From Nanobdellati archaeon (GTDB lineage: Archaea > Nanobdellota > Nanobdellia > Woesearchaeales > JAADFO01): a stretch of 42,058 nucleotides of DNA. Shown one piece after another: positions 26,422 to 29,123 of the stretch. Both the position numbers and the translations under genes were made by a program. The notes beneath the pieces are model-generated. The model did no database searches, was not told the origin of the DNA, and saw nothing but the letters and a program-made list of their open reading frames with translations. Location: positions 1 through 42,058 of the forward strand of contig JAADFO010000020.1 in assembly GCA_013152815.1 (NCBI GenBank). Reading direction: 5' to 3'. Every line of letters begins with the position of its first letter. The stretch's first letter is position 1.

Positions 26422-26615
26422 CGGTAGAGCGCAAGAGCGTCCTCGGCCTCTTTTCGAGGGACCTTCTCGATGACAATACCGCCCTGGATGATGACATAGT
26501 CGTCCACAGCAAAACCGTCGGCGATGAGCTTTCCCGGGCGTCGTTCTGACCCGTAGTCGACGATGGCCATGTCCTTCTCTATCTTCACGATCCTCCCGGG
26601 CACAGCAAGGCACAT
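26406..26615 (-). CDS. hypC: Hydrogenase assembly chaperone HypC
   Basis: 69 residues starting MCLAVPGRIVKIEKDMAIVDYG; Cys2 is the residue that carries the Fe(CN)2CO precursor with HypD. The OB-like barrel (ADGFAVDDYVIIQGGIVIEKV) and final helix (PRKEAEDALALY) match HypC/HybG. Its ATG overlaps the hypA stop by a single A (TGATG), so the two are translationally coupled. HypC hands iron to the hydrogenase large subunit encoded convergently next door. HypB, D, E and F must lie outside the window. Confidence 0.93.
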   Translation of the reverse strand: MCLAVPGRIVKIEKDMAIVDYGSERRPGKLIADGFAVDDYVIIQGGIVIEKVPRKEAEDALALYRQATG

Positions 26616-26938
26616 CAGTCCTTCACCTCGACACTCTGGATCCTGATGTCTGTGCCCGAGATCAGGTCGGGCATGGACTTGCATTCCGGGCATTCGATGA
26701 GGAAGTGGTCGTGGCCCCGTTCGAGGATGGTGGGATGGCCGATGAACCCGCAGGAGCAGGTCGCCTTCGCCGGCACCTCGTGCCATTCGATACGCCAGGA
26801 CACCATCTTCCTGAGCGCTTCGACAAGGTCTTTGCCAGGGACATGGGCAAGCTCTCCTATCTCCAGATGGATGGCCTCGACGTCTCCGTATTTCCTGGCT
26901 TCCTTGATGATCTTCTCTGCGAAGGCTATCTCATGCAT
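26615..26938 (-). CDS. hypA: Hydrogenase nickel-insertion protein HypA
   Basis: 107 residues. N-terminal MHEIAFAEKIIKEA has His2 and Glu3, the nickel ligands of HypA. The zinc site is CSCGFIG and CPEC (about residues 61-85), somewhat closer than usual because the inter-cysteine loop is short. It delivers nickel to the hydrogenase together with HypB. TATA element TTATAAA (26960-26968) 30 nt before the ATG gives a leaderless transcript. A structured RNA candidate lies immediately upstream on the same strand. hypA-hypC converge on the hydrogenase operon. Confidence 0.92.
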   Translation of the reverse strand: MHEIAFAEKIIKEARKYGDVEAIHLEIGELAHVPGKDLVEALRKMVSWRIEWHEVPAKATCSCGFIGHPTILERGHDHFLIECPECKSMPDLISGTDIRIQSVEVKD

Positions 26939-26993: not shown

Positions 26994-27168
26994 CAGTTAA
27001 AAAAAAAGAGGCTCCCCGAGGGTTGATGAGGGGGGTGGTTGGTTAGAAATTAGGGTTTCAGGGAGCCCTTGGCGGTTAGAGAGTGAATTTCTCTAATCAC
27101 ATCAATAGCATAGGAACTATATAAAGGTTTCTATTTTGAGCTACCAGTATAGTTAAAGGTATACTGGA
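26994..27168 (-). ncRNA. Candidate structured RNA with terminator, upstream of hypAC
   Basis: Read on the minus strand: a TATA-like CTTTATAAATG (27189-27198) and a second, CTTTATATAG (27115-27124); a palindrome CCAGTATA/TATACTGG (27144-27151/27160-27167) between them; then stems TTAGAGA/TCTCTAA (about 27075-27095), GGCTCCC/GGGAGCC (27010-27016/27061-27067) and a pairing TTGATG/CATCAA (27023-27028/27100-27105) that would form a pseudoknot with the previous stem. The stem is followed by T9 (27007-26999) and another T6 run (26991-26986), as archaeal terminators require. No protein-coding frame fits. It could be a stand-alone RNA of roughly 100-170 nt or a leader controlling hypAC. Function unknown. 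Confidence 0.5.
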
Positions 27169-27236
27169 ATGAGGGAAAAGTTGACTTCATTTATAAAGGG
27201 AAGAAAAGAAAGGGAAGAGAAGGAAGAGCACAAGGA

Positions 27237-29123
27237 CTAGCTTCCGAAGAACTCCTGTATCAATGTCTCTGGTTCGATTGAGATGTTCACCCCCATGTCC
27301 TCTGGGAAGTGCTGACGGTAGTTTGGCCAGGCATAGCGTTCGTCGAGGAAGACGATGACGCCCTTGTCGGTCTCGCTGCGGATGCACCTGCCTGCCCCCT
27401 GCAGGGTCTTGTTGAAGGCCGGCAACACATAGCCGTAGAGCCAGCCCTTGGCGAAACGCCGGTCATAGTAGTCGATCAGGGCCTTGGTCTCGAGGTCAGG
27501 ACGGTGGAGCGGCAGGCCGACGACGATGACCCCCTTCAGAAGGTCTCCCGGAAGGTCGATGCCTTCGGCGAAATTCGCAGAGGAGACCGCCAGCAGCACG
27601 GCACCTGCATCCTTGTAGGTCTTGAAGGTCTCCAGCATCTCGAACTTCTCGTCCTTTGTCAGCCTTGGATCTTCCTCCATGACCGTCTTCTTCGAGATGA
27701 TCCTGAAGTACATGCCGACCTCCCGCATCAGGAAATAGCTGGGGAAGAAGATGATGAGGTTGCCGGGGACCGCAGCACTGATACGGGAACAGTGCTCGGC
27801 GATGTCTTTATATTGCCGGTCTGAACGCAGGGTGAACTTGGTCGTCGTCCTGGGGACGATGAGCGAGAGACGGTTGCTCATGGGAAACGGGTTGCCATAG
27901 GTAATGCATTCGCTGTCATCGGGAAATCCCAGCACATCCCGATACATCCCGGTCGGTGAGAGGGTCCCTGACATGATGATGGTGGAATGGGCATCCTTGA
28001 TGACCGGAGCAGTCAGAAGAGACGGGTCGAGGCATTTGTACTTGAGCGTGATGAGCGGCTGACGGAACCCCTGCTTGAGGTCCACGGTCCGGACATAGCC
28101 GTCATCCTCCCCTTTCCAGAGAGTGAGAAAGGCAGAGACCCTCCCGAGGAAGGATTGTTTCTTCTCCTCCCTGACCGTGTCAGCAGCCTCTTCGAAACGG
28201 TCGATGAGGTCATCATACTGGTCAAGGGTCCCCAACCCGTCCATGAACTGGTCCCTGCGCACCAACCGTTCCCCGCCCAGTTCCAACGACCGTGACAGCC
28301 CGACCAGGATATCCTGCAGGAGCGAAAGCTCTTCTATCAGCTCAGGGAAGGCGTGCTTCTTGGCCTCCTTGATGGCCTGGAGGATGACATAGGAGGAAAG
28401 CTGGACCGAGGCCAGGTCACGTATCCTCCCCGGAAGGTTATGGCCTTCGTCCACGATGATGACAGCATCAGAGAGATCCTTGCCTATCCTGTTGAGAAAG
28501 TTCTGCCGGATTCCCGGATCGAAGAGATAGAGATAGTCGGCGACGATGACACGGGAGCTTGCCGAGAGCAGGGCAGCCATCTCATAGGGACAGAGTTCGG
28601 CATCCTCTGCCACAGAGAAGATACGCTCTGTATGGATGGGGCTCAGCCGTTTCATGTCCTCCAATGCAACCTTCGCCTCGACGGTGAACTTGCCGTTCTT
28701 CTGCCTTGCCCTGCTGTAGAAAGCGCAGGCGTGGTCCTCACGCATCCGTTTGCAGTACTCGTTGAAATCCCCGCCCCGCATGTCCTTGATGCCCGGCTGG
28801 AGGCACATCCACCGTTTGCCTATCATGTCCGATGCCACCAGGGTCTGGAGATGCGCCTCTTTGATGTGCTGCAGGGTCTCGATGGCTATCTTGTGCTGGG
28901 TGTGCCGTGAGGTGAGAAAATAGATGGTGAGGTCCTTCTTCTTGGCGACAGAGAGCGCGGGACCGAGGGTGGAGACGGTCTTTCCGAGACCGGTGGGCGC
29001 ATGGATGACCGCACTCTTCCCTGACTCGATGATGTCCCTGACCTTTTTCAGCATGTCCTGCTGGACGGCCCGGACATGCGCATAAGGAAACAGCAGGCTT
29101 TTCCTGTCGTCGGAGGAGAGCAT
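27237..29123 (-). CDS. XPD/Rad3-family FeS-cluster DNA helicase
   Basis: 628 residues, superfamily 2. Walker A HAPTGLGKT (residues 41-49), DEGH box VIIVDEGHNL (225-228) and C-terminal motifs SSANFAEGIDLPGDLLKGVIVVGLPL and QGAGRCIRSETDKGVIVFLDERYA. Four cysteines between motifs I and II (C107, C124, C133, C178) match the [4Fe-4S] site of XPD and DinG-type helicases. Works on 5' to 3' strand separation in repair (family knowledge). Length and FeS domain resemble archaeal XPD; a DinG-like role cannot be excluded. TATA GCATAAAAA (29145-29153) about 30 nt before the ATG. The region after the stop is a long pyrimidine-rich tract on the minus strand, a probable terminator. Confidence 0.92.
   Translation of the reverse strand: MLSSDDRKSLLFPYAHVRAVQQDMLKKVRDIIESGKSAVIHAPTGLGKTVSTLGPALSVAKKKDLTIYFLTSRHTQHKIAIETLQHIKEAHLQTLVASDMIGKRWMCLQPGIKDMRGGDFNEYCKRMREDHACAFYSRARQKNGKFTVEAKVALEDMKRLSPIHTERIFSVAEDAELCPYEMAALLSASSRVIVADYLYLFDPGIRQNFLNRIGKDLSDAVIIVDEGHNLPGRIRDLASVQLSSYVILQAIKEAKKHAFPELIEELSLLQDILVGLSRSLELGGERLVRRDQFMDGLGTLDQYDDLIDRFEEAADTVREEKKQSFLGRVSAFLTLWKGEDDGYVRTVDLKQGFRQPLITLKYKCLDPSLLTAPVIKDAHSTIIMSGTLSPTGMYRDVLGFPDDSECITYGNPFPMSNRLSLIVPRTTTKFTLRSDRQYKDIAEHCSRISAAVPGNLIIFFPSYFLMREVGMYFRIISKKTVMEEDPRLTKDEKFEMLETFKTYKDAGAVLLAVSSANFAEGIDLPGDLLKGVIVVGLPLHRPDLETKALIDYYDRRFAKGWLYGYVLPAFNKTLQGAGRCIRSETDKGVIVFLDERYAWPNYRQHFPEDMGVNISIEPETLIQEFFGS

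Follow-up and report, generated by a model that had tools for sequence, protein, structure and literature searches.

Bacterial small RNAs (sRNAs) such as RsaE use unpaired, C-rich seeds that target translation starts rich in G. Here, we describe an archaeal RNA with a C-rich loop, encoded on the minus strand between positions 26,994 and 27,168 of a 42,058-nucleotide contig (JAADFO010000020.1 of assembly GCA_013152815.1, hereafter "the window"), just upstream of the hypA gene of a woesearchaeal genome. We consider it probable that this RNA is transcribed and acts in trans, masking the translation start of the messenger RNA (mRNA) of a small protein and thereby repressing it. It differs from RsaE-type sRNAs in that the hosts are unrelated and in that the window RNA matches one mRNA over a long stretch that is tuned to the lineage.

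A translation block has been reported for sRNA162 of Methanosarcina mazei (PMC3510493). The two resemble each other in a transcription-factor gene, putative for the window RNA, in the circuit; sRNA162 pairs via a linker between stems, whereas the window RNA would pair via its loop, within a terminator-like hairpin that is mostly an mRNA tail. No sequence relation between the two is claimed. In bacteria, an sRNA derived from the 3′ untranslated region of the glutamine synthetase mRNA comes from the 3′ end of one mRNA and acts on another (PMC9731577). The window RNA is likewise related to small RNAs in an mRNA 3′ end with a putative target in another mRNA; unlike the bacterial case, it is archaeal, exists also as a free gene, and its processing is only putative. 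No regulatory base-pairing RNA of Woesearchaeota or other DPANN archaea was found in the open-licence literature, judged by titles and the beginnings of abstracts. The mode of action has precedents; new within the literature searched are the family of RNAs, the archaea that host it, its duality as tail or free gene and its co-evolving target.

A conserved hairpin with a C-rich loop

The RNA is conserved. A BLASTN search retrieved two clear homologues: L003, from the same family, with a palindrome and promoter of the window's kind, and L004, in which a small open reading frame (ORF) immediately precedes the hairpin. A covariance model built from the window and these two sequences matched 132 of 352 genomes of the order (which we take to be Woesearchaeales) at E ≤ 0.01, and a model built from 87 fetched matches found the RNA in 184 of 336 genomes and 125 of 210 genera at E ≤ 1e-5, usually as a single copy per genome. 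In a class sample of 378 genomes, all matches at this threshold fell within the order, the best one outside it having an E-value of 2.9e-5. No Rfam 15 family matched the window RNA at its gathering score (the only weak match was Qrr, E = 3), and eight relatives had no Rfam match either. Some R1 matches with weak E-values are false: R2 did not recover L311, L316 and L317, and L313, being weak, was omitted, as were the antisense matches L049, L089, L288 (+) and L290 (+). Tandem second copies were seen in a few genomes: L039 (1304-1368, 1501-1565), L091 (1445-1523, 1569-1644), L283, L295, L293 and L090.

The minus strand folds at -28.05 kcal/mol, a value that none of 200 shuffled sequences equalled (mean -16.9, standard deviation (SD) 2.88). 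The core is an 8-bp outer stem enclosing the loop, and changes in this stem are compensated. Among the 87 sequences, 99.0% of its pairs are standard, compared to 87.2% after shuffling; two-sided changes occur in seven of the eight pairs, and 79 two-sided cells were counted, compared to 13.3 in shuffled alignments and at most 13 in slid controls, in an alignment that was itself fitted to the outer stem and is therefore biased towards it in this count. The 5′ hairpin, seen in the window's family, carries one compensated pair in L034 (TTAGTGA/TCACTAA) relative to the window. In the loop, CCCC is kept in 130 of 133 sequences and UUCU is nearly invariant (Table 1); L089, an R1 match on the wrong strand, was excluded from these motif counts and from the arrangement counts given below.

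A preliminary description of the region, made from its letters alone, had listed a minus-strand palindrome, a TATA box, three stems, a C-rich loop and a T9 tract, all of which are present, and had held that a stand-alone RNA here would be new. The promoter signals, the T-tract, the absence of an Rfam match and the order-wide relatives with compensated stem changes bear this out, the latter coming from the covariance search in relatives that the description had proposed. Its crossing pairing is a different matter. The letters TTGATG (27105-27100) and CATCAA (27028-27023) exist, but a pseudoknot finds no support: a 6-nucleotide match appears in 18.5% of shuffles and is absent in the nearest relative, L034, and the TTGATG arm probably lies upstream of the transcription start, going by TATA spacing.

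Seed and target leader change together

In the window's genome (G000), the one long perfect complement found for the loop comprises 17 nucleotides in the leader of a small ORF at C39, which is preceded by a GTATAC box and a TATA box. The duplex of RNA and leader reaches -37.1 kcal/mol; with shuffled leaders, the mean was -18.2 and the lowest value -30.6. The ORF encodes a conserved protein of about 50 amino acids that was found in 44 of 336 genomes by a single-sequence query (E ≤ 0.01). It belongs to no Pfam family; for its core, a three-stranded sheet is predicted (mean predicted local distance difference test score (pLDDT) of 93.8 over 34 residues). Homologues were gathered by protein similarity alone, blind to their leaders, and these leaders proved mostly G-rich.

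Complementarity between loop and leader recurs with lineage-specific sequences. Besides the window's genome, nine further lineages show matches of 10-16 nucleotides, giving 10 of 19 with at least 10; the individual pairings include 16 nucleotides in G047, 14 in family f10 and in G098, 13 in G033 and 12 in G051. When RNAs and leaders were permuted over the 19 lineages, the summed match of 194 exceeded the permuted mean of 151.8 (SD 5.7; P ≤ 5e-6), and the highest of 200,000 permutations was 182. When the comparison was restricted to the loop and omitted G000 and f10, the sum was 158 compared to 130.3 (SD 5.2; P = 1.5e-5). One row per lineage was used, with G317, G236, G010, G145 and further f10 members excluded; G345 was tested (8 nucleotides) and left out as a member of the same family as G348, and G259, G270, G179, G030, G321 and G006, which have RNA matches, stood outside the test since their target leaders were not fetched.

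The pairing is kept by matched changes on both sides. In f10, a family-specific ACGTAT is met by ATACGT on the other side, and in G011, whose RNA match is itself weak (E = 7.3e-5), the seed change AACCGACCCC is answered by GGGGTCGGTT (written also as CCGACCCC/GGGGTCGG). Of 17 genomes scanned, 13 carry the f10 11-mer ACGTGGGGGTG exactly twice, once in the RNA gene and once in the leader of the target; the exceptions are G145 with an additional site, G152 and G153 with a single one each, and G166, which lacks it. For the leaders of G049 and G249, RNAs of other lineages pair equally well or better. The loop is complementary to an mRNA encoded in trans, close to where translation of that mRNA begins, and the C-rich loop that had been flagged in the preliminary description would, on these comparisons, be the functional part of the RNA.

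Several observations weigh against the proposed trans-acting role. With a profile of the target ORF, matches at E ≤ 0.05 were obtained in only 17 of the 80 RNA-bearing genomes searched, roughly a dozen of them convincing, and the target is therefore not demonstrated as universal. The remaining 9 of 19 lineages show loop complementarity of only 6-8 nucleotides, although some of their targets are doubtful. Some targets have no usual start codon in frame before the conserved core. Finally, the prediction for G166, which has a variant seed, was not confirmed: its own RNA gene was the sole match, and the single-sequence query listed no target ORF for this genome.

As to the target loci themselves, L173, L344 and L350 have no in-frame ATG, GTG or TTG between leader and conserved core, so that an unusual start or a shifted frame has to be considered. 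A second small hydrophobic frame seems to follow the target ORF in many f10 genomes (L183, L186, L189, L197). The G033 target leader (L349) contains two G-rich sites, the first of which opens a short upstream frame ending at the next start.

A winged-helix gene is linked to the RNA

The hairpin is linked to an ORF of about 130 amino acids on its 5′ side, present in 289 of 336 genomes. Of 130 loci called by script, the RNA lies 3′ of this ORF on the same strand in 85, is divergent in 6 and upstream in 4; in 35 no such ORF was detected in the fetched stretch, although one of these, L033, is actually 3′-linked. In the window's genome, the ORF and the RNA are on different contigs. The protein is predicted to adopt a winged-helix fold (mean pLDDT 82.9). 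It had no Pfam or NCBIfam match at cut-off and no sequence match in the PDB; the best Foldseek E-value was 0.056, and the best VIA matches were cullin winged-helix domains (Z 8.5), with the RPA2 winged-helix at 7.5. A functional assignment from the fold was dropped, since such matches show a common fold and no function.

GTATAC occurs within 160 nucleotides upstream of 30 of 41 separate RNAs, 44 of 67 winged-helix ORFs and 13 of 29 targets, compared to 5.9% of random 160-base windows. Upstream of separate RNAs, the box often stands exactly 18 bases before the TATA match; the window RNA, a free gene, shares this kind of promoter (GTATAC and TATA) with its relatives.

At the 3′ end of a gene, where the element lies in 85 of 130 loci, a GC stem with a T-run behind it is what one would expect if it merely terminated transcription of the winged-helix gene and persisted as a relic in the window. 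We regard this as quite improbable: the loop sequence is kept (UUCU in 131 and CCCC in 130 of 133), free copies carry promoter signals (GTATAC in 30 of 41), and the loop co-evolves with a distant mRNA.

The same linkage could also mean that the hairpin is the binding site or partner RNA of the winged-helix protein, in autoregulation or in a ribonucleoprotein, the pairing with the small-protein mRNA being secondary. UUCU is near-universal, yet falls within the long pairing in G047 only, and the RNA is more widely spread than the detected targets. In addition, a GGGG run precedes the winged-helix start codon in 7 of 10 separated genes, compared to 3 of 84 linked ones; the loci noted for such a run, which was seen by eye in the window's genome and in G001, are L041, L072, L084, L088, L104, L107, L112, L062 and L063. 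However, the separated leaders match their own RNA over 5-7 nucleotides at most, and this account, which we consider unlikely if less far-fetched, would not explain why the small-protein mRNA is complementary over long, lineage-specific stretches. The winged-helix mRNA may conceivably be a second target of the sRNA, but the pairing spans just 5-7 nucleotides and only about five lineages are involved.

The window region and its neighbours

The features of the region are listed in Table 1. The preliminary description had also raised a metal-sensing leader of hypA, that is, a riboswitch. The RNA does lie directly upstream of hypA in the window, but hypA carries a TATA box of its own about 25 bases before its ATG (26938), behind the T-tract of the RNA, and looks leaderless by this placement. 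In 1 of 131 loci the RNA has a hypA homologue nearby, and in 50 of 131 a homologue of the helicase (presumably Rad3/XPD-like); the RNA is therefore not tied to hypA. With no Rfam riboswitch match either, there is next to no chance that this reading is correct.

A TTTATAAAG-like site at 27190-27199, further upstream of the RNA, is probably the second TATA-like site of the preliminary description and has no role in our explanation. Scans for σ70 promoters and terminators are uninformative for archaeal DNA.

Table 1. Positions of the RNA, its signals and the adjacent genes in the window
Feature	Position	Strand	Basis
Palindrome CCAGTATA-N8-TATACTGG (GTATAC box), upstream of the RNA promoter	27167-27144	minus	sequence
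TATA box of the RNA, TTTATATAG	27125-27117	minus	sequence; same element in relatives
5′ hairpin TTAGAGA/TCTCTAA	27096-27090/27082-27076	minus	seen in the window's family
Outer stem, 5′ arm GGCTCCCT	27067-27060	minus	covariation
Short, weak inner hairpin GAAA/TTTC	27059-27056/27049-27046	minus	sequence
UUCU loop motif	27045-27048	minus	131/133 loops versus 17.7% of shuffled loops
C-rich seed TAACCAACCACCCCCCT	27029-27045	minus	perfect 17-nucleotide complement of the target leader at G000:C39
Outer stem, 3′ arm GGGGAGCC	27017-27010	minus	covariation
T9 tract, presumed transcription end of the RNA	27007-26999	minus	sequence
Separate TATA box of hypA, TTATAAA	26967-26961	minus	sequence
hypA (name from the preliminary description), neighbouring gene outside the RNA unit	26615-26938	minus	
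Helicase gene, upstream of the RNA	27237-29123	minus	synteny only

Proposed mechanism and implications

We propose that the RNA is transcribed from its own minus-strand promoter, starting near 27095 and ending in the T9 tract. Its core would be one terminator-like hairpin exposing a long single-stranded loop with UUCU and the C-rich seed. The seed would pair with the G-rich 5′ end and translation start of the mRNA for the protein of about 50 amino acids, hiding it from the ribosome. A translation block is the simplest outcome, because the seed would overlie the beginning of the target mRNA (its 5′ end placed by TATA spacing), with the start codon following or overlapping. In most relatives, the same hairpin would form the 3′ end of the winged-helix mRNA, while in the window's lineage it would be a separate gene. 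Co-control of all three units via the GTATAC box is conceivable, with the winged-helix protein as a candidate regulator.

As a tentative extension, in which we place rather low confidence, these units may constitute a three-part Woesearchaeota module of a near-universal winged-helix protein, an RNA present as tail or free gene and a three-stranded mini-protein masked at its mRNA start, tied together by the GTATAC element in their promoters; as a new kind of sRNA partner, the winged-helix protein may bind the UUCU loop.

Most of the organisms concerned are uncultured, and genome sequences alone suffice to recognise the RNA, its target and their lineage-tuned pairing. An RNA that occurs in some genomes as an mRNA tail and in others as a free gene can be traced across many genera. 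The system offers a testable case of co-evolution between an archaeal sRNA and its target and a handle on the control of small proteins in reduced cells.
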